Source: a virus
Reading direction: 5' to 3' (one strand)
DNA length: 41,018 nt
IMG/VR virus record: IMGVR_UViG_3300037119_004558
Span: 1 to 41,018 of that record
Of this stretch, positions 1,976 through 19,836 are shown one piece after another; the first letter of the stretch is position 1; every line of letters begins with the position of its first letter. The notes under the pieces are model-generated. The model did not search any database and was not told the origin of the DNA. It saw only the letters and a program-made list of their open reading frames with translations. Made by a program: the position numbers and the translations under genes.

Positions 1976-2167
1976 ATGAAGCTGAAGAACGTCGTATTCG
2001 GGTTCGGAGTCGCCTGGTTTGTAACGGTCGTTTGGTTCTTCTTCTGGACCTTGTTCATGGGGGGTGCCGCTGGTGGCTCCCACGAGCTGGAGAGGGTCTT
2101 CGACGTGGTGGCCTTGCTCGGCGCGCCCGCCGTCTTCCTCGGCTGCTTCTGGAAGTACAGCCGATGA
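1976..2167 (+). CDS. Small membrane protein with two hydrophobic segments
   Basis: 63 residues starting MKLKNVVFG. There are two hydrophobic stretches (about residues 5-27 and 42-57) with a short polar link containing HELERVFD. It is encoded opposite to the surrounding virion genes and driven by the promoter at 1939. It overlaps the next small membrane-protein gene by ATGA. Size, topology and pairing fit a holin or antiholin, but this is inference from architecture; no holin family is recognised. Confidence 0.6.
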   Translation: MKLKNVVFGFGVAWFVTVVWFFFWTLFMGGAAGGSHELERVFDVVALLGAPAVFLGCFWKYSR

Positions 2168-2349
2168 TCCCCGCTGTCATCGCACAGGATCTCTGCTGGT
2201 TCCTGGTGGTCCTGGTGATTCGGGACCTGGCCCCCCGCAGGATGCGAGTGCTCTGCAACGTAATGCTCTGTTACATCGTTGTGGAGACTTTCCTCCACGT
2301 CCCGATGGAGAACGCGGTGGCTCACGCTGCACTGTCCTTGGGCTTCTGA
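2164..2349 (+). CDS. Small membrane protein, second gene of opposite-strand cassette
   Basis: 61 residues with two hydrophobic segments (about 3-20 and 30-46) separated by a basic loop (RDLAPRRMR). The start ATG 2164 overlaps the previous stop as ATGA, so the two are translationally coupled. Its 3' end overlaps the 3' end of the leftward glycosyltransferase gene by 28 bases. Together with the preceding gene it may form a holin/antiholin pair; function is unproven. Confidence 0.55.
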   Translation: MIPAVIAQDLCWFLVVLVIRDLAPRRMRVLCNVMLCYIVVETFLHVPMENAVAHAALSLGF

Positions 2350-2984
2350 GCCCATTCAGGGGTGATGAACTCGTGCAGCCGATCCTTCACCGAATCGAAG
2401 TGCTTCTGGGTGACCGGCTCGGGGGTCGGCAGGTGCCCGCACTGGACCCCGGTATCGGCGAATAGCTGGAACCCCAGCTCGGCCGCCTTCCGGCAGAAGA
2501 ACAGGTCCTCGCTCACCTCCGCGTTGTACTCGAAGTGGGGCACGTCCATCTTCCGGATCATGGCCATGCTCGTGTACACGCAGCCGAAGCCGCAGCCGTC
2601 CACCGCGAGCACCACATCCTCGGGCCAGCTGGTGAGCCAGGTGAAGCCCGTCTTGTGGCGGGCTCCCACCAGGGGCCAGTACGGGGGCGACTTCTGGTAG
2701 TAAAAGCCCGTTACAAAGTCCTTGCCGTAACAGGCGATACGTACTGCATCTACGGGCAAAACGATGTCGCTGTCGCACCAGAAGATCCCATCTACCTGAT
2801 CGGGGCTGTCCAGTGCCGACCGGACAACCTGGTTGCGAGCAACATCAAACTTCTGCTTCTCGGGGCACGCGGGGCCGACCCAGGTAACGCCGTTCCTCGT
2901 CGCCTTCATGATGGCAGCGAACTGCGAATTCCGGGCTGGGGCCTCCACCGGGCCGTAGGTGGGAGAAGCAAAGATCAGATTCAC
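2322..2984 (-). CDS. GT-A fold glycosyltransferase-like protein
   Basis: 220 residues. N-terminal strand LIFASPTYGP, an ARNQ segment (49-52), then GIFWCDSDIVLP with the acidic DSD motif at 71-73, which in GT-A enzymes binds the metal and nucleotide sugar. The later SEDLFFCRKAAELGF (about 158-172) matches the ED-type catalytic region of family 2-like transferases. The start is GTG 2984, overlapping the upstream stop by GTGA with GGAG ahead. Being inside the virion operon, it may glycosylate a virion protein or a host surface glycan. Donor and acceptor are unknown. Confidence 0.7.
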   Translation of the reverse strand: MNLIFASPTYGPVEAPARNSQFAAIMKATRNGVTWVGPACPEKQKFDVARNQVVRSALDSPDQVDGIFWCDSDIVLPVDAVRIACYGKDFVTGFYYQKSPPYWPLVGARHKTGFTWLTSWPEDVVLAVDGCGFGCVYTSMAMIRKMDVPHFEYNAEVSEDLFFCRKAAELGFQLFADTGVQCGHLPTPEPVTQKHFDSVKDRLHEFITPEWAQKPKDSAA

Positions 2985-3295
2985 CGGGACTCCTTGCGAT
3001 CCGGCTCCTTGCGAGACCCCCTGGCCGTCTCGACATCGGCTTCGGGGGGAGGGGGGGCGTCCGGGGTGTAGCCACGGACCACCCGAACGTCCCCGTCGCT
3101 CTGGAAGAACGTGAACCCGTCCACGGTCCCGTCCTCGTTGATTGCGGTCACCAGGATGAAACCCTCCTCCACCTCCTGGAGCCCCGTCTGGGCGAGGACC
3201 AGCTGGGCCTCGGCTTCCACCTCCTCCACCACCACCTTGCCGTGCTCGTTGTACCCGCGAACCTTCTTCTTGACCTTCTTCGTCGCTGCTGCCAT
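2981..3295 (-). CDS. Small conserved-looking protein of unknown function
   Basis: 104 residues. A lysine-rich N-terminus (MAAATKKVKKKVRG) is followed by an acidic and beta-like middle (about 20-80) and a charged tail. The start ATG 3295 has a GGGAGG ribosome site. It is coupled to the glycosyltransferase by GTGA overlap, suggesting co-expression. No family recognised. Confidence 0.6.
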   Translation of the reverse strand: MAAATKKVKKKVRGYNEHGKVVVEEVEAEAQLVLAQTGLQEVEEGFILVTAINEDGTVDGFTFFQSDGDVRVVRGYTPDAPPPPEADVETARGSRKEPDRKESR

Positions 3296-3323
3296 AACTG
3301 CCTCCCTTCTGTTGTAACGTCGT

Positions 3324-3809
3324 TTACGGGAAGAAGTACTCCCGAGAGATCAGCGGGCATCCGGGCGGCACCAGCGACGCCCTGATCCGGACCATGCCGG
3401 GACCCAGCCGCTTCAGCGTGTAGTTGAACAGGTTGAGATCGTCCTGGCTGAACTCGATCCGGTCCGAGCCCTCGATCACGTCGATGTCCAGGTTCTGCCC
3501 GTGGACCGACGGTGCCGCCTGGGTGCCATCTTCCAGCAGCGGGGTAACGGTGCCGTACACCACGCACCCGACGGGCACCACGTTGGCGACTCGGGTCACG
3601 CACTCCACACTGTGTACGTCTCCGAACACGCCACCGGCCAGCCGCCGCACCGGGCAGCCGATAGCGAGCGCGGGGTCCGCCACCACCGGAGACGCATTGG
3701 TCGGGCTGCTGCCCTGCGTCTGGCCATTCACGAACGTGGTGTTCTTGTCGCCAAAGTCCAGGCAGGCTGGCAGCGACATCACAGCGAACAGCAGGACAAG
3801 ACGCCTCAT
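3324..3809 (-). CDS. Predicted lipoprotein
   Basis: 161 residues from ATG 3809, chosen because GGAGG lies 5 bases upstream; an ATG at 3821 is also possible. The N-terminus MRRLVLLFAVMSLPAC is a lipoprotein signal with lipobox LPAC (Cys16). The mature part is beta-like with several Cys (52, 70, 82, 151), suggesting disulfides outside the cytoplasm. It follows another lipoprotein gene directly. Possible roles are an outer-membrane spanin-like lysis protein, superinfection exclusion, or a surface factor. No family recognised. Confidence 0.65.
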   Translation of the reverse strand: MRRLVLLFAVMSLPACLDFGDKNTTFVNGQTQGSSPTNASPVVADPALAIGCPVRRLAGGVFGDVHSVECVTRVANVVPVGCVVYGTVTPLLEDGTQAAPSVHGQNLDIDVIEGSDRIEFSQDDLNLFNYTLKRLGPGMVRIRASLVPPGCPLISREYFFP

Positions 3810-3820
3810 CGCAGCCTCCA

Positions 3821-4162
3821 TTACCTGATCCTGGGCGGGTGACCGTCCGCACACAGGTCGTTCTGGGCAATCATCACGTACATCGTCGCTTCCGCCCCGA
3901 CCCCCGCTTCCCGCAGAGCGTCCAGCACCTCGTTGTCGCTCTTGCCCATGCACATGAGAATCCTGGTCAGGTTCACGAGCACGGTGGAAGTACCGGAGAC
4001 GGGCGCTGGTGCAGGGGCCACCACCGTCGTCGTCGTCACCACCGGGCGCGGCGGCTGCGGGGGATCGGCCCTGCTCTCGTGCCACAAGCCCGCGCTAAGG
4101 CCCTGGAGATGGAACGCACAGCCGGGGAGGCAAGCCAGGGTAACGACCAGTAGCCACCTCAC
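3821..4162 (-). CDS. Predicted lipoprotein with Thr/Pro/Ala-rich linker
   Basis: 113 residues from GTG 4162, overlapping the upstream stop by GTGA. The signal peptide MRWLLVVTLACLPGC carries a lipobox LPGC (Cys15). A Pro/Thr/Val/Ala-rich linker (about 33-58) is followed by a helical C-terminal domain with two Cys. Proline-rich outer-membrane lipoproteins of this size are typical of o-spanins. However, I see no adjacent i-spanin with a long coiled-coil, so lysis function is only one option. Confidence 0.65.
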   Translation of the reverse strand: MRWLLVVTLACLPGCAFHLQGLSAGLWHESRADPPQPPRPVVTTTTVVAPAPAPVSGTSTVLVNLTRILMCMGKSDNEVLDALREAGVGAEATMYVMIAQNDLCADGHPPRIR

Positions 4163-4407
4163 GTCGTGTACCCACTCCTCGTCTCATCGAAGCCGCCGAG
4201 CATGCGGACGATCGTCACCCGCCACACCTTCGGCTTCAGCCAGTCGTACCAAAGTAGGTTGGTAGGTTTGTAGTTCAGGGACCCGCAGGGGCACATGAGC
4301 CCCTTCCGGATCTCGGCCTTCTCCTCCAGGATCGTGATGAGCCGGGCGCAGCGATGGCACCTGTAGAAGAAGTAATCCATGCTACCCATGACGATGGCGG
4401 TTCTCAT
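4159..4407 (-). CDS. Zinc-ribbon-like small protein
   Basis: 82 residues starting at ATG 4407, which overlaps the radical SAM stop as ATGA. Cysteine pairs CHRC (17-20) and CPC (39-41) suggest a metal site, followed by a basic, aromatic C-terminus (LLWYDWLKPKVWR). It is translationally coupled to the radical SAM gene and could be its partner or substrate, which is inference. No family recognised. Confidence 0.55.
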   Translation of the reverse strand: MRTAIVMGSMDYFFYRCHRCARLITILEEKAEIRKGLMCPCGSLNYKPTNLLWYDWLKPKVWRVTIVRMLGGFDETRSGYTT

Positions 4408-5246
4408 ATCCCCGTGCACCCCGCGCAAATCGGGATGCTCGCTCGCTTTCCGGTGAAGTGAGCCTCCCTGATCCCAGTGGCGTGGGGACCATTGTAGACC
4501 TCCCGAATCGTCTGGGTCCTCAAGTCCCCAAGAATCTCTTTCCCCTCGCCGTCGAAACAGCACAGCGACACCCGTCCGTCCCAGAGCACCATGATCTGGC
4601 CCAGAGCACGGGAGCATCCAGCAGTGGGGGTAATGCGTGGTAGGTAGGTCTCCCCGGCCCAGTTGCCTTCCTGGTGAAGGAAACCTTGCCCACCCTCCCG
4701 GAAGTCTCCCCACATCGCCATGAAGATTTCATTCTCGCCCATCTCGAAAAGGTCCTTCTCGCTAACGGCCTTTACCACCACCCGGTACTTCCCAATCGCG
4801 GTGGCGTACCTGATCTGCTCCACCACCTTGTCGAAGTCGGGCAGGCCCATGATAGCGAGTCGCTTCTCCGCTGAGACAGCATTGAGCGAAACGTACAAGT
4901 TGGTGAGTCCCGCGTCAGCCAGGGCGACGGCCTTGACGTTCGTCAGGTGGGTCCCTGCGGTGTAAACGTCGATTACCCACTCGGGGCACAGCTTCCTGGC
5001 GAAGGCGATACGCTCCTCCAGGTACTGGTCGATGAGAGGTTCTCCCAGACCCGTGAAGCACACCGAATTGATCTGGGGGATGGTCGCGGCCTCGGTCAGG
5101 ATCTTCCGGCAAAGGTCCCGGTCCATGAAGCCCTTCGCCCGTCGCATCCTGGGATACTCGCAGAAGACGCAGCGAGCGTGGCAAACGGCGGAAGTCTCCA
5201 GCTGGAGCTGGATGCCCGGAATGGACCTACTCTGTGTTACTTCCAC
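4404..5246 (-). CDS. Radical SAM/SPASM-domain enzyme
   Basis: 280 residues from GTG 5246, which has GAGG 4 bases upstream; a TTG at 5258 lies in the T-run of a terminator and is less likely. The radical SAM cluster motif CHARCVFC is at Cys22/26/29 (CxxxCxxC) and the GGE-like motif is GLGEP (66-70). The C-terminal SPASM-type cysteines are Cys211, CC at 229-230 and CAGC at 274-277. These bind a second Fe-S cluster and are typical of enzymes that modify peptides or proteins. It lies right after capsid and decoration genes in the virion operon and is coupled to a zinc-ribbon protein. Likely role is post-translational modification; the substrate is unknown. Confidence 0.85.
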   Translation of the reverse strand: MEVTQSRSIPGIQLQLETSAVCHARCVFCEYPRMRRAKGFMDRDLCRKILTEAATIPQINSVCFTGLGEPLIDQYLEERIAFARKLCPEWVIDVYTAGTHLTNVKAVALADAGLTNLYVSLNAVSAEKRLAIMGLPDFDKVVEQIRYATAIGKYRVVVKAVSEKDLFEMGENEIFMAMWGDFREGGQGFLHQEGNWAGETYLPRITPTAGCSRALGQIMVLWDGRVSLCCFDGEGKEILGDLRTQTIREVYNGPHATGIREAHFTGKRASIPICAGCTGI

Positions 5247-5256
5247 GTTACCTCGC

Positions 5257-5306
5257 AAAACGTCCCCGACTGGCTGGCGGGGAACGGTAACCAGCCAGCC
5301 GGGGAC
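5257..5306 (-). terminator. Rho-independent terminator after capsid/decoration genes (leftward)
   Basis: Arms 5262-5277 and 5291-5306 form a 16-bp stem with one mismatch around a 13-base loop. On the leftward strand the stem is followed by G then TTTT (5260-5257). It separates the highly expressed capsid genes from the radical SAM gene. A GTAAC half-site lies in the loop. Confidence 0.75.
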
Positions 5307-5324
5307 TCGCTTACGCGAGGTGGT

Positions 5325-5759
5325 TCAGAGAGCCCGGATGAAGCCCTTGACGAGGGCCGCAGCGGGCGTGGCAGCCGTGGCGACGGCGGCGGCGGCGACG
5401 ATGAAACCGCTCTTACCGTCGCTGACTCCGGAACGGGCGAGGTGCCACTGCGCCGTGACGGGAACGAGGATGTCTCCCGCCGCGATGGCCTGGGAGGCGT
5501 CGTTCGTGACCAGGATGCTCTGGCAGTAGCCGTAGGTCTGGAACTTGCCGTACGCCTGATCGGCGATGTTCTCCGCTGCCACTCCCACGAACAGGGACAG
5601 CAGCGCGGCGAGGGGCTTCGTCACCCGGTTGCCGTCCACGAGTGTGGCGGTCGTGTCCAGCACGGCGGGGTACCCTGCGGTCATGGTGGCTCCCGAGGCG
5701 TTGTAGAACACCCCGAAGCCGCGCTCGGCTCGGTCACGGTTGATGGTGGGGAAGTACAC
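5325..5759 (-). CDS. Putative head decoration/capsid-associated protein
   Basis: 144 residues from GTG 5759, chosen because AAGAGG lies 7 bases upstream; an upstream ATG at 5813 lies in a hairpin region. Ala/Val/Gly-rich beta-like sequence with ...AGDILVPVTAQWHLARSG... resembles capsid cement or decoration proteins, small beta-barrel proteins that bind mature shells. It sits just downstream of the major capsid gene and just before a terminator, as such proteins often do. Family not identified with certainty. Confidence 0.6.
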   Translation of the reverse strand: MYFPTINRDRAERGFGVFYNASGATMTAGYPAVLDTTATLVDGNRVTKPLAALLSLFVGVAAENIADQAYGKFQTYGYCQSILVTNDASQAIAAGDILVPVTAQWHLARSGVSDGKSGFIVAAAAVATAATPAAALVKGFIRAL

Positions 5760-5801
5760 TGGATTACCTCTTATCTCTAGCGCCCTGTGTGTTGGGTGAA
5801 A

Positions 5802-5830
5802 GCTGCCGGGCAAAGGCGTTACCCGGCAGC
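5802..5830 (-). terminator. Hairpin between capsid and decoration genes, weak terminator
   Basis: A perfect 9-bp stem (5802-5810 with 5822-5830) around an 11-base loop, followed leftward by TTTC. The T-run is short, so it may only attenuate transcription or protect the 3' end of the capsid message. Confidence 0.45.
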
Positions 5831-5854
5831 CTACTTTCGCTCTCTGCTGTCAGT

Positions 5855-6922
5855 CTAGGTGAGAACCGTGTCCTTCGGGATGTTGAACCCGATGCCGTGC
5901 TTGCGCCGGTTGCTGGTGCAGGCCGCCCCCAACCAGAGGATGTGGCTGGTCTTCGCGTCCTGGTTGACGGGCCGCTGGAACGGATCGCTGATGAAGTTGG
6001 TCTGCTTGTCGTACCGCATCTCCCAGAACTTCATGTTCAGGAAGAACAGGCACCCCTTGTTCGTGGTCATCGCGCCCGGCGTCGAGTAGTCGGCGATGAA
6101 CTCGTCCCACATGATCGTGGACCCCTTGAACTTGATGTTCTCGAAGGGGATGTCGGCCTTGCCGTAATCGGGGTTACGGTGGTAGCTGGCCAGGTAGGTC
6201 TCGTACTGCTCGTAGGTGCCCTGGTCGCAGAGAGCGAAGTCGGGCGGTCCCCCGGGACCCTTGGAGCAGTTGTTGTAGAGGTTCGTGAGCGCCGTGCGGT
6301 ACGCCGCATTCGTGGTGATGCCGGTGAAGCTCTTGAACTGGTTTCTCCACCAGGTGTAGGTGTTCTGGGCGATGTTGCCGTACGTGAGCGCCGCCGTGGG
6401 ATCGGGGGTCACAGCCTTGCCCAGCGGATCGAAACCGGACGCGCCGTTCGCGGCCGACACGTAAGGGACGATAGGAGACCCGCCCGTGGGCAGGTTGCCC
6501 TGGAGCAGAGCCTTCCCGAACAGCTCCTGGATGCCCAGCTCGGCCTGCTCGATCTTGCTCTCCAGCAGGTCGATGATCTGGGCCTCGTTGCTGTTCTGGC
6601 GCTCCTCCTTGCGGCTGATGGAGATGGGCACCGCCATCTGCCGCCAGTCGTAGAAGGCGGACGTGATCCCGTCCATCGGCGTGGTGTCGAGCAGATCGTA
6701 GCCACTGTAGAAGTCGGCCCGACCCAGCTCGTACATCAAGGGAATCTGAATCCTCTCCCCGATGTTGTCCACACCCTTGTACCCACGCTCCCGCTTGTTC
6801 TTGAGCCACCAGAAGAATGCATTCCCGGTGGAGATGTTGTCCTCCAGCGTCTTCCTGTAATTGAACAGGGTGGTGGAGAGCAGAGCATCGTAATTGAGCG
6901 TCAAAGAAGAAGGACTCGGCAC
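5855..6922 (-). CDS. Major capsid protein
   Basis: 355 residues from GTG 6922 with AGGAG 8 bases upstream. The N-terminal pattern LLSTTLFNYRKTLEDNI (about 14-30) and the following WWLKNK are characteristic of a capsid protein family seen in many tailed phages. The body is mixed alpha/beta with no enzyme motifs. Position directly after the scaffold-like gene and before a decoration-like gene supports the call. It would form the icosahedral shell. Confidence 0.8.
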   Translation of the reverse strand: MPSPSSLTLNYDALLSTTLFNYRKTLEDNISTGNAFFWWLKNKRERGYKGVDNIGERIQIPLMYELGRADFYSGYDLLDTTPMDGITSAFYDWRQMAVPISISRKEERQNSNEAQIIDLLESKIEQAELGIQELFGKALLQGNLPTGGSPIVPYVSAANGASGFDPLGKAVTPDPTAALTYGNIAQNTYTWWRNQFKSFTGITTNAAYRTALTNLYNNCSKGPGGPPDFALCDQGTYEQYETYLASYHRNPDYGKADIPFENIKFKGSTIMWDEFIADYSTPGAMTTNKGCLFFLNMKFWEMRYDKQTNFISDPFQRPVNQDAKTSHILWLGAACTSNRRKHGIGFNIPKDTVLT

Positions 6923-6938
6923 AGTCGGCTCCTATCAG

Positions 6939-6952
6939 GTAACGGTGGTTAC
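6939..6952. repeat. Exact copy of GTAAC-N4-GTTAC palindrome
   Basis: GTAACGGTGGTTAC lies between the scaffold and capsid genes and includes the scaffold stop codon. It is one of five exact copies I found of the genome-wide palindrome. Confidence 0.85.
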
Positions 6953-7860
6953 TCCCACCGCTCGCCACGCTTCGCCGCTGCGAGGGATGCCCGTAGCTTG
7001 TCGCCTTTGGACATCTTCTCGAAACCGGACGGAGGGCCTGGCGTAACACGGGAACCCGGCGTACCGCTGCTGGGACGCTCACCACCTCTCGCCGTGGCCT
7101 CGACCAGACGGTCCACTGCGTCACCCGCCGCCTTCCCGGCCGCACGTTCCGCCGTGGCCAGGGTGTACAGATCGTCCAGGTACTTGCTTGCGTCGGCACC
7201 CGGAACGGGGCGGAACCGCTGCGCGACTTCCATCATCTTCTTCTCGTGCTGCTTGAAGTCGGGATGACGCTTCTCGAAGTCGGCCTGTACGACGGCAGCG
7301 GTCTCCTCGACACCACGAGCCTCCGTCATGGTGAGGCGTTGCTGGATCGGGCCAATCTGGGCCTGGGCAACCTGTCCCGCGATCTTCTCCACAACGGGCA
7401 GAAGCCGCTCGGCCAGGTCATCTCCCACGGCATTGGCCAATTCCGCACGCATCCCCTCACGAACGTCGGGTGCCTTGGGTTGGTCAGCTAGCCGGAGCCC
7501 AGCCTGCTGAGCCAGCCACTGGACCGTCCCCACAGGATCGGTTTGCAGTGCCTGGGCCAGCTGCTGAGCACCGGCCAGCTTCTGGGTTTTGGTGGTGAAC
7601 CCCTTGTGAAGGTTCTTGTAGAGAGCCTTCAGTGCGGGGTCGGCCTTGATCCGGGCCAGCTCCTCGGGAGTGACCAGATCACCAGCGTCTTCGTCATCGG
7701 TATCGTCGGTTACGGCAGCGGCCGATACTGCACCCTCAGCCCCTTCCGCCGCAGGGGTAGGGGTATCGTCGCTGGCTCCCGTGTCGCCACCGGTCCCGCC
7801 GACTGGAGCCTCGTCTGCTCCGTCATCGGCTGCGGACGCGGGGGCTACTGGCGTTGCCAT
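6949..7860 (-). CDS. Capsid scaffolding protein (putative)
   Basis: 303 residues from ATG 7860 with GGAG upstream. The first 60 residues are acidic and Ala/Thr/Asp/Gly-rich. Then comes a charged helical body (LVTPEELARIKADPALKALYKNLHKGFTT) and a basic C-terminal stretch (GDKLRASLAAAKRGERWE). An acidic, coiled, unordered protein with a basic C-terminus immediately upstream of the capsid gene is the normal arrangement for scaffolds of T7/P22-type phages. Assignment is from composition and position. Confidence 0.7.
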   Translation of the reverse strand: MATPVAPASAADDGADEAPVGGTGGDTGASDDTPTPAAEGAEGAVSAAAVTDDTDDEDAGDLVTPEELARIKADPALKALYKNLHKGFTTKTQKLAGAQQLAQALQTDPVGTVQWLAQQAGLRLADQPKAPDVREGMRAELANAVGDDLAERLLPVVEKIAGQVAQAQIGPIQQRLTMTEARGVEETAAVVQADFEKRHPDFKQHEKKMMEVAQRFRPVPGADASKYLDDLYTLATAERAAGKAAGDAVDRLVEATARGGERPSSGTPGSRVTPGPPSGFEKMSKGDKLRASLAAAKRGERWE

Positions 7861-7875
7861 GCTTGTCTCCGTTCG

Positions 7876-8013
7876 TTAGTAGCCGCTGCGTCGGACGGTG
7901 CCCCTGACTGGGACCTTGGTCCGCCGCTTCGGCTTGAGCTGTGTCTTGAGTGAACCGGACTTGAGGTGTCCAGCTACGAGCGAGGTAAGGGAGGGTACCG
8001 GTGCCCGCTTCAC
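7876..8013 (-). CDS. Very small basic protein
   Basis: 45 residues from GTG 8013, overlapping the upstream stop as GTGA. Composition is rich in Lys, Arg, Ser, Leu and Val (for example LKPKRRTKVPVRGTVRRSGY at the C-terminus), with no acidic residues at all. It lies in the head operon, so it may be a nucleic-acid-binding or capsid-associated peptide. It is short, so coding status rests on the coupled start and the clean gap it fills. Confidence 0.45.
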   Translation of the reverse strand: MKRAPVPSLTSLVAGHLKSGSLKTQLKPKRRTKVPVRGTVRRSGY

Positions 8014-8297
8014 AGCGTCACCCCTCCCCCAAACTCACCGTCGAAATCCTCCAGGTCGCGCTTCGCACGCTCCTGTGCTCGCATCAGGGCGGACATCACC
8101 TTGTCCGCAGCCCGATCGCGGTCGAACTTCTTGATCTCGGTATCCAGACGCTCCAGCTCGGCCTTCCGGCGCTTCTTCTCCTCCTTCTTCCAGGAGGAGT
8201 CCGGCCCGGGGCCACCGTGGGTGTACACGCTGAGCGTGACCCGCATCGGGTCCTTCTTCGCCTTGGTGTACGCCTCTTGCATCTTCACGCTGGCCAT
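8010..8297 (-). CDS. Charged coiled-coil protein of the head operon
   Basis: 95 residues from ATG 8297. The middle (about 37-85) is very rich in Lys, Glu, Arg and Asp with a heptad-like pattern (WKKEEKKRRKAELERLDTEIKKFDRDRAADK), suggesting a coiled coil. ATGA overlap with the preceding gene. Could be a scaffold accessory or head-assembly factor; no family recognised. Confidence 0.6.
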   Translation of the reverse strand: MASVKMQEAYTKAKKDPMRVTLSVYTHGGPGPDSSWKKEEKKRRKAELERLDTEIKKFDRDRAADKVMSALMRAQERAKRDLEDFDGEFGGGVTL

Positions 8298-8554
8298 CAG
8301 AACTCCCGTCCGGGCATCCCGTTCCTCACGGGTGCGTAATCCAGGTGGGCCGCCTTCATCTCTCGCCTGCGCTCCGCAAGGGACGTGATGTACACCGGGT
8401 TACCATCATCCCTTACGTGCTCGTCCCAGTACGGCTTGAACTCACCGAGCATCCCGTGGATCTCGCCGCTGTGGTTATCGGGGTTACCCTTGCAGAAGGG
8501 CCACTGCCCGATCAATACCTCTTTACCACAGCCGAAGGGGCAAAGATCGCTCAT
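8297..8554 (-). CDS. Small protein with N-terminal Cys motif
   Basis: 85 residues. N-terminal CPFGC (5-9) and a further Cys at 21 suggest a metal site. The remainder (GEFKPYWDEH, ITSLAERRREMKAAHLDY) matches a general pattern of small proteins found near portal genes of uncultured podovirus-like phages, whose function is unknown. Its ATG lies 6 bases after a predicted -10 box, so this gene may be translated from a leaderless message as well as from the long operon transcript. Confidence 0.65.
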   Translation of the reverse strand: MSDLCPFGCGKEVLIGQWPFCKGNPDNHSGEIHGMLGEFKPYWDEHVRDDGNPVYITSLAERRREMKAAHLDYAPVRNGMPGREF

Positions 8555-8560
8555 GGGCGG

Positions 8561-8590
8561 ACCCTAGCATAGGTGGTGTTACCATATCAA
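8561..8590 (-). promoter_or_regulatory. Internal leftward promoter, near-leaderless
   Basis: On the leftward strand TTGATA (8590-8585), an 18-base spacer and TAGGGT (8566-8561), then only 6 bases to ATG 8554. The spacer carries a GTAAC copy. The -10 sequence TAGGGT also occurs in the terminase promoter and the promoter before the XRE gene, which supports the call. It would give extra expression of capsid-region genes. Confidence 0.5.
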
Positions 8591-8601
8591 GAGGTATACC
8601 A

Positions 8602-10494
8602 CTAGTTGGGAAGGCCAGCTCCCGCGTTGCCCGCCTGGAGCTGCTGGGCAATGTCGGTGTTGCCCGGCGTGGGACCCGGCCCGGCTGCTCCCGCTCCGGT
8701 CTGCTTCCCGCCGCCGACCCCCTTCGCCTGGGCCTGAGCCTGGGCCGCCATCGCAAGCTGCTGGAGCACCATCGCCATAGCCTGCTTGATCTCTTGCAGC
8801 TCCCTATCGCTCTTTACCCCGTAGAAGCCCATCGTCTTCTTCAGCATCACGTCGCTGGACATCAGGATCTGCATGAGGGTGGGATTGGCGAAGACACTCA
8901 GCACCTGGTTCCAATTCTGGCGCTTCTGGTCCTCGTTCATGGGCGAGAGGCTGTCCACGTCCACCGTCACATCGAAGTCGAACGAGCCGAGATCGGTGGC
9001 CTCGATCCGCTGCCAGATCGCCTGCACCTTTTGGGCCTCCTGCAATGCCTGCGGCCCGGACCAATCGACGTTTACCATGACGAACAGGGGCAGGGCCGCC
9101 TTCTCCCGCAGCAGGCTCAGCATCTGGAACATCCCGTCGCTGACCCACTCCCCGATCTCCTTGCGGCCGAAGCTGTCCCGGATCTTCGCGTTCACGTCGA
9201 TGATGTTGGCCTGGGTGGCCGTGGTGGACTCGCTGATCCCCTGCTGCTCTCCCCCCACCCCGCTGATCCGCATGAAGTCGTCCTCTGTCTGACCGACTTC
9301 GTTCTGCACCGTGCTCCCGAGCGGCGCATCCTCCAACGCCTTCAGGGCATCCTGCCGAGCAACCTCGATCACCGTCATGTCCGGCCCGTTCTCCAGCTTG
9401 TCCAGCTCGGGGGCCTCGACGCCACCCTTCGTCATCATGTAACGACGCCTAGCTCGGCGGCGGTGCGTGCGCTGCGTGTTCCGGATCTCGTTCAGCTCCC
9501 GCTGCGGGCTGATCCAGTTGTAGACGGGGGGCAGCGGGTAGAAGCTGTCCAGCACCGGGTACGGGCGAATGAAGCTGAGGGGAAAAGTCTTGTATGGTTC
9601 CTTATATACAAAGAAGTCGGTGCCATCGGCCGGGAAAACGTGGCGCTCCTTGGTCCGCAGGTCCCACACCTTCCACACCTTCACCAGCCCGTAACGACGG
9701 TTACGCTCGTCCAGGCTGCCCCCCATCTCGACCTGGTACTTCTTGGAGACGTTGGCCCGGGTCTGGTACTCCTGGTCCTTGTTGTCCCAGCCCCGCGTGG
9801 CCTTGATGTCCTCGGGGTGCATCCACTCGAAGTAGCCGAGCCAATCGTTGTAGAGCACCTCGTTCTTGCTGACGGCAGGAGCCCGGAACTGGTGCGCGGG
9901 AATGCGACGGGACCAGACCTGCTCCGTAATCGGGATCTTCTCGGGCTGGATGACGGGATCGTCGTCATCGTCCAGGTAAGGATCGTTACTGTTCGGCTTC
10001 AGCAGCGGCTTGCCTCCGTTCGGGTTGTCCCCGATCTCGTTGCTGTAGCCCTGCTCCGTGACGCCGAATCGGTAGAAGGACTCCCGCAGCGACAGGTAGT
10101 GGCTGTCCTTCCAGCCCACAGCCCTACTGGTCATCAGCGTCTGACCAGTATCCTCCAGCAGCTTGCAGGTCTCCTCGGCCTGGCTCCCCAGGTCATCCGC
10201 CTTCGCCGGTCTCGGGGTAACGCGCAATTGCGGCGCTGCGTACAGGAAGCTGGGGATCTTCACCTCGATCGAGGGGAAGACGAGGTTGATGGTGTACAGG
10301 TCGTCGGGACCGTTGCCCATCTCCTCGTGCTGGTGCCCCAGGTAGAAGTCCTCCAGGATGTCGCAATCGAAGTCCTTCTCCCACTCACCGTACGCCTTGT
10401 CGGCGGATTCGGTGTGGCCCTTCCACATCTTCAGGGCATCCTCGCGCTCCTCGGGGGGGTCGGACTTCTTCTTGACTGGAGTCTTCTTCGCCAT
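8602..10494 (-). CDS. Portal protein
   Basis: 630 residues. N-terminal Lys-rich tail, then a long alpha/beta body with IEVKIPSFLYAAPQLRVTPRP (about 75-95), typical of podovirus-like portals that form the dodecameric DNA gate. Gln/Ala-rich C-terminal helices (AMAMVLQQLAMAAQAQAQAK) would form the barrel or crown. The start overlaps the terminase stop by one base (TGATG), a normal terminase-portal arrangement. Assigned from order, size and pattern. Confidence 0.85.
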   Translation of the reverse strand: MAKKTPVKKKSDPPEEREDALKMWKGHTESADKAYGEWEKDFDCDILEDFYLGHQHEEMGNGPDDLYTINLVFPSIEVKIPSFLYAAPQLRVTPRPAKADDLGSQAEETCKLLEDTGQTLMTSRAVGWKDSHYLSLRESFYRFGVTEQGYSNEIGDNPNGGKPLLKPNSNDPYLDDDDDPVIQPEKIPITEQVWSRRIPAHQFRAPAVSKNEVLYNDWLGYFEWMHPEDIKATRGWDNKDQEYQTRANVSKKYQVEMGGSLDERNRRYGLVKVWKVWDLRTKERHVFPADGTDFFVYKEPYKTFPLSFIRPYPVLDSFYPLPPVYNWISPQRELNEIRNTQRTHRRRARRRYMMTKGGVEAPELDKLENGPDMTVIEVARQDALKALEDAPLGSTVQNEVGQTEDDFMRISGVGGEQQGISESTTATQANIIDVNAKIRDSFGRKEIGEWVSDGMFQMLSLLREKAALPLFVMVNVDWSGPQALQEAQKVQAIWQRIEATDLGSFDFDVTVDVDSLSPMNEDQKRQNWNQVLSVFANPTLMQILMSSDVMLKKTMGFYGVKSDRELQEIKQAMAMVLQQLAMAAQAQAQAKGVGGGKQTGAGAAGPGPTPGNTDIAQQLQAGNAGAGLPN

Positions 10495-15242: not shown

Positions 15243-15280
15243 CCTTACCCGTTGGCCTAACCGGACCCGTGAGTCAGGTA

Positions 15281-15309
15281 TTGACTCATAGGTCCCATTA
15301 GGGTAACGT
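15281..15309 (+). promoter_or_regulatory. Rightward promoter before 15336
   Basis: TTGACT at 15281-15286, 17-base spacer, TAACGT at 15304-15309. The -35 box lies in the inverted repeat TGAGTCA-N5-TGACTCA (15270-15288). The -10 box is the left half of the palindrome GTAACGTGCCGTTAC (15303-15317), which also spans the predicted start point. Confidence 0.65.
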
Positions 15310-15317
15310 GCCGTTAC
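15303..15317. promoter_or_regulatory. Candidate operator overlapping a -10 box
   Basis: GTAACGTGCCGTTAC, with both half-sites exact and a 5-base spacer. It coincides with the -10 box and start point of the promoter at 15281, the same geometry as at 1961-1974. Confidence 0.6.
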
Positions 15318-15335
15318 CTGTGATGGAGGTATGTC

Positions 15336-15782
15336 ATGATTGCTAGCAAGGTCTCTGCCGAGGTCCTACTGTCCGCTGCTCGTGAGGTCGGGGTATCGCT
15401 CGATATCCGCTCACTGTCCGCCATGCGCCACCGTGTCAAGGTGAACCCCGACCGGGGTAGCAACCCCGATGCCTTCACCCCCAAGGGAAACCGCCGCGCG
15501 GGCGAGGCTGGGGACCTGCGGTATCAGCGCACGTCCGCCAATGCGACACGCGACACGAGTCGGGTAAACGCCGTTTGCTGGCACGGGTTCCGTGACTTCT
15601 TCCGCGCGGTCTACCGCCGCAACCCCGATGCTGTCTTCACCACGGCGATGGCCAAATGGGCAGGCTCGGAGCATTTCGAGGCCAACTTTCCAGCCTCTGG
15701 CATGCGTAACGTTGGGTCGGCCTACATGCCGATGATGGCGGCCGAGGTGTGCCGATGCCCGGAGTCGGGCTGGGCACGTTAG
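15336..15782 (+). CDS. Hypothetical protein
   Basis: 148 residues, helical and basic. MIASKVSAEVLLSAAREVGVSLDIRS at the start and WHGFRDFFRAVYRRNPDAVFTTAMAKW around 90-116. Good ribosome site (GGAGG, 8 bases upstream). No catalytic motif seen and no family recognised. First gene behind the promoter at 15281, in the small-gene accessory region. Confidence 0.6.
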   Translation: MIASKVSAEVLLSAAREVGVSLDIRSLSAMRHRVKVNPDRGSNPDAFTPKGNRRAGEAGDLRYQRTSANATRDTSRVNAVCWHGFRDFFRAVYRRNPDAVFTTAMAKWAGSEHFEANFPASGMRNVGSAYMPMMAAEVCRCPESGWAR

Positions 15783-15854
15783 AGGGTTGCTCTATCCGGC
15801 CCGTGCTCTGCATGGGTCGCATTAGGGTAACTGTCTATAGGAGGATAGAAAGTC

Positions 15855-16061
15855 ATGGATAAGCAATTCGACTCTAGCATTGTCATTGGTGGGGAGGACG
15901 GGGCACGCGAAGTGCTTGCTGCATTCCTGGAACGGTCGGCCGCATTCCGTTTCGAGCCTTTACCGGACGACAACTACTGTTTCCACTACAACACAGAGCA
16001 CGCGTCCGCTATCGAGCCTTTCGCGTCGTGGTTTCCCGTTCTGCCACCCATTGAAGGGTAA
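15855..16061 (+). CDS. Small acidic hypothetical protein
   Basis: 68 residues with a GGAGG ribosome site. Acidic and aromatic (MDKQFDSSIVIGGEDGAREVLAAFLERS). Its upstream region at 15811-15831 is a near-copy (19 of 21 bases) of the promoter spacer at 15287-15307, pointing to a duplicated control segment. Function unknown. Confidence 0.55.
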   Translation: MDKQFDSSIVIGGEDGAREVLAAFLERSAAFRFEPLPDDNYCFHYNTEHASAIEPFASWFPVLPPIEG

Positions 16062-16072
16062 CGGAGGATAGA

Positions 16073-16303
16073 ATGGAACAGGGTAGCGCAGTATCGTATC
16101 GGGTATTCGTCCGGAATTGGTACCGCTGGCAGGGTAGCCAGTTCGTGGGGGGTTTCCGTAGTTTGGTGCCTAACTCCGGGGGCAGGAAAACCACCCTTGC
16201 CCGGGGTTGCACGGAGGCCGAGGCTCGCTCCATCTGTGAGCGGTACGCTGCCACGCATCGCCCCGGCCCCCTGTCCCGTAAGGCAGAATACGAGAGGGAG
16301 TAG
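16073..16303 (+). CDS. Small hypothetical protein
   Basis: 76 residues, compact alpha/beta with YRVFVRNWYRWQGSQFVGGFRSL and TEAEARSICERYAATH. The ribosome site AACGGAGG is continuous with a GTAAC copy at 16059-16072. No family recognised. Confidence 0.55.
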   Translation: MEQGSAVSYRVFVRNWYRWQGSQFVGGFRSLVPNSGGRKTTLARGCTEAEARSICERYAATHRPGPLSRKAEYERE

Positions 16304-16306
16304 CCA

Positions 16307-16492
16307 ATGAGACTGAATCAACGTTCAGCGGTCGGGACCCGTGCCTATGGTGAGTTACGTCCGGGGGATTGGCGCGTCGTGTGCGCTACCTGCGACGCGG
16401 GAGGTACTATCAGTTACAAGACACGGAGCGAGGCTGGGCAGGCTGCTACCACCAATTCGGCACGTCCGTGCCAATCCTGTGGAGCAAGGTGA
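16307..16492 (+). CDS. Small zinc-ribbon-like protein
   Basis: 61 residues with CATC (26-29) and CQSC (55-58), a four-cysteine zinc-ribbon arrangement around a basic middle. Its ribosome site (GAATACGAGAGGGAGTAG) is repeated almost exactly before the gene at 16513. Function unknown. Confidence 0.55.
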   Translation: MRLNQRSAVGTRAYGELRPGDWRVVCATCDAGGTISYKTRSEAGQAATTNSARPCQSCGAR

Positions 16493-16512
16493 ATACGAAA
16501 GGGAGTAGGCCA

Positions 16513-16689
16513 ATGGAGAATGCAACGGAGAAGCACGGATCGTGTTGGTTCGTGGTCCTGCACTGCGCCAGTGCGGAGGATGCCGCTATCGCGGCAGCGC
16601 GTGTCAAGATCGATGTAACGTTCCGTACAGGACCGCCCCGCATCCTCCGTGCTGGGGAGAAGCTAGGCAAGAGAGGGGAATGCTACTGA
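16513..16689 (+). CDS. Small hypothetical protein
   Basis: 58 residues from ATG 16513, chosen for the AGGGAG ribosome site that copies the one at 16286-16306. Contains SAEDAAIAAARVKIDVTF, an alpha/beta pattern. No function assigned. Confidence 0.5.
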   Translation: MENATEKHGSCWFVVLHCASAEDAAIAAARVKIDVTFRTGPPRILRAGEKLGKRGECY

Positions 16690-16856
16690 TGCGAACCGTC
16701 TGCATTGAATGCTCCTGTGAACGTCCTGAGTACAATTGCTGGGAGTGCAAGGAGGACGTGTGCCTAGCCCACGTTGCGAAGCACACGATCCGGCATTGGG
16801 AGGAGGAGCGACAGGACCCGTCAACCATCTATTCGTCTGAGGGTGAGGAGGAGTAA
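16689..16856 (+). CDS. Small Cys-rich (B-box-like) protein
   Basis: 55 residues. CIECSCERPEYNCWECKEDVCLAHVAKH gives six Cys plus two His within 30 residues, a B-box or ZnF-like pattern, and the tail is acidic (EEERQDPS...EGEEE). The ATG shares its A with the last base of the preceding stop codon. Likely zinc-binding; role unknown. Confidence 0.55.
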   Translation: MRTVCIECSCERPEYNCWECKEDVCLAHVAKHTIRHWEEERQDPSTIYSSEGEEE

Positions 16857-16859
16857 GTC

Positions 16860-17345
16860 ATGTTACCCGCAATCGGTCTAGTCGTGCTGGCAGCGGCCAG
16901 CCCCACGCAACGTTTCGAGAACTACGTACAGGCATGGAGCCTTCGGGTTGGGGTCCCTTGGGGACAGCTGCGGACCCCCAGCGACTTCCCCCGAGTCTTC
17001 ACCAGTGAGCACATGATCCCGGCCGGGTTCGCCCGCAACACGATCGCCCAGACGGAGCCTGACAGCAACGTCGCGGGCCGGGCTCAGATCAGGGTGGACC
17101 CTCGCCGGATAGGCAAGGCGGACAATCAGGAGCTATCCCGGTGGGCACTCCACGAGGTGTGCCATGTCCGACTTGGGCATCAAGTGTTTAGGTTCAACGT
17201 TCACGATGCTCCGGAATTGGATGCTCAACACAAGGCATGCATGGCCAATGCGGTAACGTCCGCTAGGGCAGACGCGCATCAGCCTGTGAAGAAGGGGCGG
17301 GGGTGGAAGAAATGGCTGATCCTGGCCGCAATAGTGCTCATCTGA
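16860..17345 (+). CDS. Membrane-anchored metallopeptidase-like protein
   Basis: 161 residues behind GAGGAG. A hydrophobic N-terminus (MLPAIGLVVLAAAS) may be a signal or anchor, and a second hydrophobic stretch ends the protein (WKKWLILAAIVLI). The central motif HEVCHVRLGH (98-107) is a zincin HExxH with a following LGH, and EL at 119-120 may supply a further ligand. It could cut host envelope proteins, but activity is not shown and the motif alone can be misleading. Small zincins of phages vary widely, so no named family is given. Confidence 0.6.
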   Translation: MLPAIGLVVLAAASPTQRFENYVQAWSLRVGVPWGQLRTPSDFPRVFTSEHMIPAGFARNTIAQTEPDSNVAGRAQIRVDPRRIGKADNQELSRWALHEVCHVRLGHQVFRFNVHDAPELDAQHKACMANAVTSARADAHQPVKKGRGWKKWLILAAIVLI

Positions 17346-17539
17346 GCGACATTCGGGGCAAGGTGCTGGAGCGCCGCAGGCTGGTGGAGACCGCCATTCA
17401 AGCCTTTGATCGGGGTCCCGTGCTCCGGGCCGCCGTGAAGCTGGCCGGGGCTTTGGACGCTTACCTCCAGGACGGGGTTTGCCTGGACAACGGGCGGGGC
17501 TCTGTGTGCTATGGTACCTGCCCCGTGTGTAAGGAGTGA
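17312..17539 (+). CDS. Hypothetical protein with C-terminal Cys pair
   Basis: 75 residues from ATG 17312 with GGAAG upstream; the frame also has an ATG at 17303. It overlaps the end of the metallopeptidase gene by 34 bases. Helical (DIRGKVLERRRLVETAIQAFDRG) and ending in CYGTCPVCKE, a Cys cluster. The stop TGA lies just past the AAGGAG used by the next gene. Confidence 0.5.
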   Translation: MADPGRNSAHLSDIRGKVLERRRLVETAIQAFDRGPVLRAAVKLAGALDAYLQDGVCLDNGRGSVCYGTCPVCKE

Positions 17540-17544
17540 TACCT

Positions 17545-17721
17545 GTGAAGTCCTTTTCGGGATTGGCTCCTGAGGGTGGACTTATTTGGGGTTTACTCCT
17601 GTTTCTGGTTCTCTTGTGGTTGCATTCTATTGGAGGTTACACAGTGATTTGGGTGATGGGTTCCTTGGTCTGGCTGGTGCTCCGCATTGCCATTGGTTCG
17701 GGAGGTGTTACCAGGAGGTGA
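17545..17721 (+). CDS. Small membrane protein
   Basis: 58 residues from GTG 17545, chosen because AAGGAG lies 8 bases upstream; GTG 17536 is an alternative coupled start. Two hydrophobic segments (LIWGLLLFLVLLWLH and TVIWVMGSLVWLVLRIAI) separated by a short turn. Holin-like size, but no family evidence. Confidence 0.55.
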   Translation: MKSFSGLAPEGGLIWGLLLFLVLLWLHSIGGYTVIWVMGSLVWLVLRIAIGSGGVTRR

Positions 17722-17740
17722 GAGGGGCTCCCTTTTGGGG

Positions 17741-17770
17741 TTGACAGGTGCAAGGAGGGTGTAGTAGGGT
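17741..17770 (+). promoter_or_regulatory. Promoter of the XRE regulator gene
   Basis: TTGACA at 17741-17746, 18-base spacer, TAGGGT at 17765-17770. The same -10 sequence is used by two leftward promoters. The predicted start is near 17777, just before the palindrome at 17781-17798. Confidence 0.55.
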
Positions 17771-17780
17771 GTCACCCGGT

Positions 17781-17798
17781 CCTGTTATCTAGTACAGG
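17781..17798. promoter_or_regulatory. LexA-box-like palindrome CCTGT-N8-ACAGG
   Basis: The core CTGT-N8-ACAG equals the consensus of gammaproteobacterial LexA boxes. It lies right after the predicted start point of the XRE gene. It could be a site for host LexA, linking this regulator to DNA damage, or the regulator's own operator. A related palindrome CCTGTTAACAGG occurs at 24397. Confidence 0.5.
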
Positions 17799-17829
17799 AA
17801 ACAGAATCCGGAATGGAGCCTTTAGCCCC

Positions 17830-18267
17830 GTGAAACCTGAATCAGAGCCTCGATCCACAAGCCCCGACTCCAGCCCTCAATCCAGAAGCCTCAGTCCTCA
17901 ATCCAGAAGCACAAGCCCCGGCCGCGCACGCGAGGCCGACCCCGCGCCGCTGAAGCCGGGCAGCTGGGACGGGTCCCGTGTGGTGAAGGCCACCTTGCCC
18001 CGATTGCAAGAGATCCTGGAGGCGCAGGGGCTGACCAATGGCGATGTCGCGCGGGGCACCCAGATTGCCCACGCCCAGATCAGCCGGATCTTTTCCGGGA
18101 AGCAGGGCATGAGCCTGACCAGTGCGCTCCGGATTGCGGGGTTCCTGGGGGTAACGGTCGAAAGGTTGGCCAGCATCCTGAAGGCAGGGAGCAACCTGGG
18201 CAAGCGTCTGAAGAAGAAGGCAGGGAAGGAGGCTCGTCGTTCGGGTACCGGAGGTTACCCAAAGTGA
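17830..18267 (+). CDS. XRE-family helix-turn-helix regulator
   Basis: 145 residues from GTG 17830. Residues 8-32 are a Ser/Pro/Arg/Gln repeat (SPQSRS twice), coded by two exact 15-bp direct repeats at about 17874 and 17895. Residues 55-117 form a Cro/CI-type HTH: LTNGDVARGTQIAHAQISRIFSG then MSLTSALRIAGFLGVTVERL. The C-terminus is strongly basic (KRLKKKAGKEARR). No dimerisation or peptidase domain is seen. It has its own promoter and palindrome, suggesting autoregulation. It is the best candidate for binding the dispersed GTAAC sites, but that is a guess. Confidence 0.8.
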   Translation: MKPESEPRSTSPDSSPQSRSLSPQSRSTSPGRAREADPAPLKPGSWDGSRVVKATLPRLQEILEAQGLTNGDVARGTQIAHAQISRIFSGKQGMSLTSALRIAGFLGVTVERLASILKAGSNLGKRLKKKAGKEARRSGTGGYPK

Positions 18268-18452
18268 GTGAGCCTCGGCCCCGTATGCGAGTAACCAACT
18301 GCCTGAAGCCCGTGCGGGTCAAGTTCGTCTGCTGCCAATGTGGCCTGGAGATCGAGCAGGGTGAGCATGTATTCTGGAAGCACGAGCGTTGCCGTGACAC
18401 GGACGGCAAGGTGCGCGTGGAGTTCGTGACCGACAACCTGGAGGGCGTGTAA
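18264..18452 (+). CDS. Small zinc-finger-like protein
   Basis: 62 residues from GTG 18264, overlapping the HTH stop by GTGA. CCQC (23-26) with a later HERC (about 40-43) gives a CxxC...HxxC zinc site. Translational coupling to the regulator suggests shared timing. Function unknown. Confidence 0.55.
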   Translation: MSEPRPRMRVTNCLKPVRVKFVCCQCGLEIEQGEHVFWKHERCRDTDGKVRVEFVTDNLEGV

Positions 18453-18704
18453 TTGCCGATACCCCAAATGGAGCACTTCAACCTGGAGATCGCCGAGGTT
18501 CCCGACCCGCGCCGCAAGGACGGGAGCCACTGTGTGGCCTTCACCCTGGCCACGAAGACGCGGAAGATGACCGTTGCGATTGAGCCCCACGAGATGGACC
18601 AGCTGGGCGTGTCGCTGATCGCTGCCGCTGCCGTGATTCGGGAGCGTGTGGGCAGGTTGCTGGCCACCGGGGAGGACCGGACGCTGTTCGTTCCGGGCCA
18701 CTGA
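18453..18704 (+). CDS. Hypothetical alpha/beta protein
   Basis: 83 residues from TTG 18453, chosen because GGAGG lies 8 bases upstream; ATG 18468 is an alternative start without a ribosome site. Beta strands (FNLEIAEVP, HCVAFTLATKTRKMTVAI) followed by a helix (LGVSLIAAAAVIRERVGRLL). No family recognised. Confidence 0.55.
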   Translation: MPIPQMEHFNLEIAEVPDPRRKDGSHCVAFTLATKTRKMTVAIEPHEMDQLGVSLIAAAAVIRERVGRLLATGEDRTLFVPGH

Positions 18705-19039
18705 TGGCCGACGAGATCAAGTTGGTCAGTGAGAACCCGGTCAAGATCGTCCACGTCGTCCAGCGCACGCGCGTGGTGGAATATCGCGTTACCACGAAGC
18801 TATGGGTCTATACCATCCGCTACTGGATCGAGAGCAGTCCGGAGCACGGGGGCGTGGCCAGTGGGCAGGAAGCGCGGGAGCTGGTGGAGAAAGCCGAGAA
18901 CGATGTGAAGCACTGGTACCCGATGCCCAGCACGCTCAGCCTGGCCGAGCACCTGATCGAGAAGGTGTCCTGTGCGAACAGCATCGAGGTTTGTTACCAC
19001 GCAGGTAACGGGGTAACGATCCATAGGGACTGGCCATGA
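18704..19039 (+). CDS. Hypothetical protein
   Basis: 111 residues; the ATG overlaps the previous stop as TGATG. N-terminal beta region (IVHVVQRTRVVEYRVTTKLWVYTIRYWI) and a helical centre (GQEARELVEKAENDVKHW). No motif or family recognised. A GTAAC pair lies at its 3' end (19001-19026). Confidence 0.5.
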   Translation: MADEIKLVSENPVKIVHVVQRTRVVEYRVTTKLWVYTIRYWIESSPEHGGVASGQEARELVEKAENDVKHWYPMPSTLSLAEHLIEKVSCANSIEVCYHAGNGVTIHRDWP

Positions 19040-19131
19040 AGTGGGTCCTGTTCGGGGCGGCTGAGCTGGTGGTCCTATTCCTCGTTACCCTGGCCATCGT
19101 GTGGGGTACCCAGCGGAGGAAGAAGCCGTGA
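19036..19131 (+). CDS. Single-pass micro-membrane protein
   Basis: 31 residues: MKWVLFGAAELVVLFLVTLAIVWG is one transmembrane helix, followed by TQRRKKP, a positive-inside tail. The start overlaps the previous stop as ATGA and its own stop overlaps the next start as GTGA, which supports real translation. Role unknown. Confidence 0.5.
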   Translation: MKWVLFGAAELVVLFLVTLAIVWGTQRRKKP

Positions 19132-19448
19132 CCCGCAGCGAGGTGCTGTACGGGCTCCAGCGCAAGGGGGTCAGGCTGGTGGCCGAGGACGCGGAATTCC
19201 TGTGGGAGTGTGACCGTGCTGAAGCTGCGGCGTTGGTACAAGCTAACTCCGGAGGAGAGACGCAGCTGCATCGATCAGGCGCGCACTCTGTTCCAGGAGG
19301 GGAAGGGGCTGGAGACTGTCCTCCGGGCGCTAGCTCTGGACCCATTGGACCGCTCGCGGGTTTCGGGGCTCGGGTCTACGCCTCCCCCCGCGAAGCCCCC
19401 AGCTACGGACACCTCAACCCCCCCGGCCGCAAAGTCCCCACGTCGTAG
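19128..19448 (+). CDS. Hypothetical protein overlapping the next gene
   Basis: 106 residues from GTG 19128. The first 40 residues (TRSEVLYGLQRKGVRLVAEDAEFLWECD) look like a compact helix-strand domain, loosely similar to TubC N-terminal docking domains. The remainder overlaps 19210-19836 in another frame and is Pro/Gly-rich, as a shadow would be. Either a short real gene with a non-functional tail, or the N-terminal part of the next gene separated by a frameshift. Confidence 0.4.
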   Translation: MTRSEVLYGLQRKGVRLVAEDAEFLWECDRAEAAALVQANSGGETQLHRSGAHSVPGGEGAGDCPPGASSGPIGPLAGFGARVYASPREAPSYGHLNPPGRKVPTS

Positions 19449-19836
19449 GAGAGACCCCGCTGGCCATGCTGCCATCCTGCGGGACGAAGCCGACGACTAC
19501 CAGGAGAGCCTACGGGAGCTGTTGCCTCCGGGAGCCAGGGCTCAGCTGCTGGTGGAAGCCGCGACGAGCGCGAACCCCCTCATGCGGGCCGGTGCCATCA
19601 AGCGCATCGATGAGATCCTGAATGCCGATTCAGGGGGCGGGCAAGCGGTACCGCTCTTTACCCTGCCTGCGGACACTCGGCTGGGATTCGCTCCTGTGGT
19701 GAGCCAGGGCCAGCACGACGTGGAAGCTGAGAAGGCTCGTGTGTGCAAGGTAATCCAGCGTTACTGGCTGGCCAGTGAGGACGACGAGGAGTCGGCCCGT
19801 TGGCAGGCGTGCCTGGCCGAGGTAATCGGTGACTGA
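19210..19836 (+). CDS. Possible small-terminase-like protein
   Basis: 208 residues from GTG 19210 (GTG 19216 also has GGGAG ahead). N-terminal helices (LTPEERRSCIDQARTLFQEGKGLETVLRALALDP), a Pro/Ala/Thr linker (about 55-80), then LLPPGARAQLLVEAATSANPLMRAGAIKRIDEILN (about 98-132) and an acidic C-terminus. The middle pattern resembles the core of some phage small-terminase or HTH-adaptor proteins. It lies far from the large terminase, in the early arm. The assignment is weak; the gene itself is likely real. Confidence 0.55.
   Translation: MTVLKLRRWYKLTPEERRSCIDQARTLFQEGKGLETVLRALALDPLDRSRVSGLGSTPPPAKPPATDTSTPPAAKSPRRRRDPAGHAAILRDEADDYQESLRELLPPGARAQLLVEAATSANPLMRAGAIKRIDEILNADSGGGQAVPLFTLPADTRLGFAPVVSQGQHDVEAEKARVCKVIQRYWLASEDDEESARWQACLAEVIGD

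Follow-up and report, generated by a model that had tools for sequence, protein, structure and literature searches.

Phage-encoded glycosyltransferases are known to act on virion proteins. Those of mycobacteriophages glycosylate capsid and tail proteins (Freeman et al. 2023, cited in PMC12619734 and PMC11652166); the citing passages mention no radical SAM enzyme, and the target they describe is not a decoration protein. In STIV, an archaeal virus with a different capsid, the single-domain GT-A enzyme A197 is an essential viral glycosyltransferase that possibly glycosylates the coat, capsid protein B345 (PMC10551542), and the passages on A197 describe no radical SAM enzyme alongside it.

Among radical SAM enzymes, BtrN, the 2-deoxy-scyllo-inosamine dehydrogenase of the butirosin pathway (PDB 4m7t), joins the radical SAM core to a twitch domain, i.e., a truncated SPASM domain with one auxiliary cluster (PMC9012708). 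The peptide enzymes SuiB, anSME, PqqE, and EpeE also combine a radical SAM core with a related C-terminal cysteine domain, but SuiB, anSME, and PqqE are longer and carry the full SPASM domain with its two auxiliary clusters. In phage M6, radical SAM enzymes and glycosyltransferases take part in a DNA hypermodification pathway. Here we describe a radical SAM gene in the capsid operon of an uncultured virus and compare its product and its neighbors with these systems.

Results

The window, by which we mean the whole stretch analyzed, is a 41,018-base virus record from IMG/VR. The same virus is represented by another record, L002, which agrees with the window at every base over 15.2 kb and places ∼4.6 kb (L002 positions 15244–19848) between the two ends of the window. 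By ORF content this segment consists partly of tail genes; the window record is thus circularly permuted and incomplete. The virion genes are on the minus strand and follow, in transcription order, terminase, portal, a scaffold-like protein encoded ahead of the capsid (6949–7860; named from position and conservation), the major capsid protein (5855–6922; phrog_9953 major head protein, 9e-47, with Mx8-like relatives), a cement-like decoration protein (5325–5813, its true start probably lying inside this ORF; PF09956 match of 0.002, under the family cut-off), the radical SAM enzyme (4404–5246), and an 82-residue cysteine-rich protein (4159–4407). Two lipoprotein-like ORFs, a small ORF, a glycosyltransferase (2322–2984), and further ORFs lead from there to an SU10-type head-tail adaptor (193–837; PF24175, 1.7e-14). 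The first lipoprotein-like ORF (3821–4162) has an LPGC lipobox and no Pfam match, and the second lies at about 3327–3833, also on the minus strand. At their place other viruses carry lysis genes (holin and endolysin in phage BUCT555, Peptidase_M15 in L014), and ORF 3821–4162 is probably lysis-related and outside the cassette. Around the cassette genes, a search for promoters and terminators returned nothing above chance. Elsewhere in the window, a family A DNA polymerase carries a fused uracil-DNA-glycosylase-superfamily domain (29275–31818, plus strand), and a dUTPase is encoded at 32691–33227.

The radical SAM ORF ends at 4404 and starts at 5246 (GTG, with GAGG directly upstream) or alternatively at 5258 (TTG). 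Its 280-residue product matches Radical_SAM (1.2e-14) and SPASM PF13186 (1.8e-11) in Pfam, both over the gathering score, and has the core motif C22-HAR-C26-VF-C29. Membership in the radical SAM superfamily is supported by the Pfam match, by the CxxxCxxC motif, which occurs in all relatives, and by the partial TIM barrel of an AlphaFold model (pLDDT 89). The sequence-only reading, which had seen a CxxxCxxC enzyme encoded after capsid and decoration genes, is therefore borne out by the ORF, by Pfam, and by phrog_9953. Its further claim of SPASM-type cysteines holds in part: there is a PF13186 match, and there are C-terminal cysteines (C211, C229 with C230, and C274xxC277), but the full set for AuxI and AuxII is absent from this protein and its relatives. 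Because only C, C(C), and CxxC precede the end of the protein, which stops after C277, the C-terminal domain is predicted to be a twitch domain with one auxiliary cluster rather than a two-cluster SPASM domain; the PF13186 match is consistent with a short domain, as the 67-position model fits twitch too. The cysteine spacing of 18/45/3 equals that of C169/C187/C232/C235 of BtrN as read from the profile alignment, and it is kept with few exceptions in 35 non-redundant relatives, copies cut by contig ends being set aside. By this pattern the viral enzyme appears to share the four-cysteine cluster spacing of BtrN-like dehydrogenases.

BtrN is the best match of the viral enzyme by sequence, profile, and fold. 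A profile of 14 relatives searched against the PDB matched BtrN in both core and twitch (8e-24), followed by AbmM (2e-9) and BlsE (2e-8), all three of them known or named sugar or cyclitol enzymes, whereas the peptide enzymes scored far more weakly (anSME 7e-6, EpeE 1e-4, and PqqE between these values). Foldseek also ranked BtrN first (1e-12), followed closely by SuiB, anSME, and EpeE, which act on peptides. Sequence comparison hence favors sugar or cyclitol chemistry, and the fold by itself leaves the choice undecided. The likeness to BtrN has limits: identity is ∼17%, BtrN belongs to an antibiotic pathway rather than to a phage, and its aligned parts lack the invariant EGNWAG motif of the viral family as well as the CC pair and CT-x-I end of that family. 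The twitch domain, the proximity to BtrN, AbmM, and BlsE, and the glycosylation neighborhood described below speak against the view, taken from the letters alone, that this is a typical peptide-modifying SPASM enzyme.

No relative of the gene was found among the cultured phages of INPHARED, no PHROG family corresponds to the protein, and a pattern scan of 84,980 species genomes returned full-length cellular matches of at most 30% identity, for which reason host and cellular context was left aside. IMG/VR contains close relatives at 44–58% identity together with a wider family. The family is thus found solely in uncultured viruses, with no close relative in cells or cultured phages. Distant radical SAM proteins in L166–L182 were excluded as other families. 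They include a different family in other viruses (L170–L174, about 2073–8688, ∼90 bits), of which the L172 member is near tail-like genes, and two genes amid a run of glycan-like genes in a 94-kb virus (L166, 3728–14079).

We mapped HMMs for capsid, cement, radical SAM, methyltransferase, zinc ribbon, glycosyltransferase, and adaptor on all loci. Among viruses whose capsid is of the same family as that of the window, cement gene and adaptor enclose a variable island, the adaptor being its downstream border. Islands with the radical SAM gene also hold a methyltransferase, a zinc ribbon, and a glycosyltransferase; islands without it still hold glycosyltransferases and often other sugar enzymes, such as UDP-glucose dehydrogenase and epimerase (L065), DegT aminotransferase, sulfotransferase, and CmcI-type methyltransferase (L071), or GT4-type enzymes (L067 and L079). 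Among 69 island ORFs from the 21 loci with no close radical SAM gene there, Methyltransf_11 occurred in 16, Anp1 in 6, Glycos_transf_1 in 5, and Glycos_transf_2 in 4, as compared with no methyltransferase and a single glycosyltransferase-family match among 90 neighboring ORFs outside the island. No gene for a lipid-carrier glycosyltransferase or a flippase was recognized in the island.

The radical SAM gene was missing from the whole records of 25 of 28 capsid relatives checked, many of these records being fragments, and from the capsid-adaptor stretch of the cultured Mx9, BUCT555, ppBjS10J-1, and others. Its absence from relatives with the same virion genes, which had been raised beforehand as counting against a virion role, is accordingly real for cultured Mx8/Mx9-like phages and many uncultured ones, while others carry the gene; for this reason we regard it as an accessory cassette gene and not an essential virion gene. 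Exceptions to capsid linkage are L016, L134, L136, L146, and L150, in which the gene is apart from capsid genes or none are in reach. One 45-kb record has glycosyltransferase and zinc ribbon in the capsid island (L064:9667–13146) and radical SAM with two methyltransferases elsewhere (L134:5632–7573), the radical SAM gene there being coupled to both MT1 and MT2.

Every locus uncut by a contig end has an adjacent methyltransferase gene or a methyltransferase-glycosyltransferase fusion, with the exception of the window. The partner methyltransferases are of three types (MT1, MT2, and Methyltransf_24), and MT2 adjoins the radical SAM gene in ten loci (L016, L134, L145, L146, L148, L150, L152, L153, L156, and L159). 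The window lacks an orthologous methyltransferase within the cassette; it encodes a class I enzyme of subfamily MT2 in trans, in another operon (25380–25889, plus strand; Methyltransf_11). A nucleotidyltransferase suspected by eye in L164 had no Pfam match. HMM matches place a glycosyltransferase beside or near the radical SAM enzyme in 25 of 35 loci (in L014, none lies within the contig). Most relatives in which the cement gene is retained have the glycosyltransferase in the island and so encode it with virion genes. In the window it is a 220-residue protein with a DSD motif, belonging to phrog_12406, and is assigned to the GT-A fold from alignment, model (pLDDT 87), and Foldseek, the best match being STIV A197 (2c0n, 1.7e-12), followed by human LH3 and COLGALT1, which are collagen-lysine glycosyltransferases, and mimivirus R699.

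The 82-residue protein is Cys4 zinc-ribbon-like (CxxC...CPCGS), and its start codon shares bases with the stop codon of the radical SAM gene (ATGA). The coupling of the two genes had suggested that the small protein might be partner or substrate of the enzyme, which we consider unlikely: the zinc-ribbon gene is directly before the glycosyltransferase gene or in the same island in L064, L067, L078, and L079, with no radical SAM gene beside it, and we therefore assign it to the glycosyltransferase and reject it as substrate. It has no relatives in cultured phages. As it is the only conserved small neighbor, the loci contain no dedicated small precursor peptide beside the enzyme of the kind that marks RiPP-type systems.

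The same trio of radical SAM, methyltransferase, and glycosyltransferase is also found behind unrelated capsid genes. The head module of L161–L163 is of HK97 type (that of L162 comprises portal PF04860, protease PF04586, and capsid PF05065 at 2e-41), and it is followed by a small protein, assigned to phrog_5707 for L161 and L162, then by a methyltransferase-glycosyltransferase fusion, and then by the radical SAM gene. In L154, a P22-type coat protein (PF11651, 1e-28) is followed by a further ORF, the radical SAM gene, and then a glycosyltransferase-methyltransferase fusion. Capsid operons of at least three head lineages thus include the radical SAM gene, and this recurrence behind unrelated heads leads us to argue for a role in the virion.

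Within the main lineage, the decoration protein varies with the cassette. At a major capsid protein identity of 50–55%, decoration proteins were 55% identical in the 40 pairs with the radical SAM gene on both sides and 33% identical in the 12 mixed pairs, whereas adaptors were 33% and 31% identical, respectively; the same contrast was seen at 55–60% and at >60% capsid identity, where mixed pairs depend on few radical-SAM-negative loci, above all L059 and L065. L064 counted as negative despite the gene elsewhere in its record. A label-shuffle residual statistic was 15.5 for cement (shuffle sd 1.7), 11.3 for glycosyltransferase, and 3.7 for adaptor; none of these values was attained in 500 shuffles, although the shuffles ignore phylogeny, the pairs are non-independent, and the adaptor too exceeds its shuffles. 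Cement and cassette move together, which could reflect linkage without a functional match. A loop with the pattern SxxxDGK[ST]GF (about residues 117–131 of the decoration protein of the window) is conserved mainly in radical-SAM-positive phages, G127 being present in 20 of 20 of these and 2 of 23 others and A131 in 19 of 20 and 1 of 23. The lysine and serine of the loop are not invariant, and the residues that are invariant in radical-SAM-positive phages alone are a few Gly, Ala, and Arg, with no single invariant reactive residue among them. From this conservation, the loop is a possible modification site.

Discussion

Our preferred reading, to which we give a probability of about 0.55, is that a BtrN-like twitch radical SAM oxidoreductase is the sugar-tailoring member of a cassette by which the phage glycosylates its virion, the decoration protein being the most likely acceptor. 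The GT-A glycosyltransferase, perhaps assisted by the zinc-ribbon protein, would move a host-derived nucleotide sugar onto the decoration protein. Either before or after this transfer, the radical SAM enzyme would abstract a hydrogen from a C-H bond of the sugar, as its cysteine spacing and profile matches suggest; the electron of the substrate radical would pass to the single auxiliary cluster, and the product would be a keto- or epimerized sugar, much as BtrN acts on its cyclitol. A class I methyltransferase would then cap the sugar. The chemistry, the order of steps, and the acceptor are what we infer from the domain make-up, the cysteine pattern, the linkage of the three enzymes, the position of the genes, and co-segregation. 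That some virion component is modified, as the sequence-only reading proposed for a capsid, lipoprotein, or tail protein, gains support from the capsid operons of at least three head lineages and from the co-segregating decoration protein, which make a virion component the likely beneficiary, if by an indirect route. A broader formulation, which we offer tentatively, has the radical SAM enzyme oxidize the decoration protein or its attached sugar at an unactivated C-H bond, with methylation and glycosylation building there and with the module being swapped between unrelated capsid lineages and, in the main lineage, traveling with a matching decoration protein.

The closeness to BtrN is at superfamily level, with the low identity given above, which weighs against the sugar-tailoring reading, as does the match of the fold to EpeE, a peptide epimerase, and SuiB, a peptide cyclase. 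The loci whose radical SAM gene is apart from capsid genes or has none in reach, the contig of L014 with no glycosyltransferase, and the placement of MT2 of the window in another operon also count against it. The matches to EpeE and SuiB lend some credit to an enzyme that modifies the polypeptide of the decoration (or capsid) protein directly, perhaps by side-chain oxidation or epimerization, with methyltransferase and glycosyltransferase building on that site. Such an enzyme would suit a gene directly after the decoration gene, its strong co-segregation, and the SxxxDGK[ST]GF loop with G127 and A131 common to radical-SAM-positive decoration proteins. However, the cyclitol and sugar enzymes come first in the profile ranking, the protein has only 280 residues and one predicted auxiliary cluster and lacks an additional N-terminal domain such as binds leader peptides, the lysine and serine of the loop vary, and the neighborhood is one of sugar machinery, so that we find action on the polypeptide doubtful.

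Two further targets lie outside the virion proteins. Glycosyltransferases of pelagimyophages have been interpreted as modifying host-surface glycans (PMC7029224), and the cassette might by analogy serve superinfection exclusion or serotype conversion; the capsid-operon position in three head lineages, the STIV A197-like fold of the glycosyltransferase, and the lack of a recognizable lipid-carrier glycosyltransferase or flippase gene in the island make this improbable. Alternatively, radical SAM enzyme, methyltransferase, and glycosyltransferase might together modify a base of the phage DNA, since phage radical SAM enzymes and glycosyltransferases are known in hypermodification (Pyle et al. 2024, as cited in PMC12619734). 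We judge this very improbable, because a thymidylate-synthase-type gene was found in none of 12 radical-SAM-positive records including the window (although records may be fragments), and because the genes occupy a late capsid operon, covary with the decoration protein, and include a glycosyltransferase whose model resembles protein glycosyltransferases.

The sources cited above, in the passages concerned, describe no radical SAM tailoring step for the few known phage virion glycosylation systems. If the sugar-tailoring reading or its broader form is true, these genes would constitute a family of radical enzymes, specific to viruses, that tailor sugars or proteins, with the decoration protein as candidate acceptor, and would give a simple prediction of which uncultured phages have modified shells. 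Radical SAM genes of phages are usually listed as auxiliary metabolic genes; one group of them at least would then be re-read as virion-modification genes.
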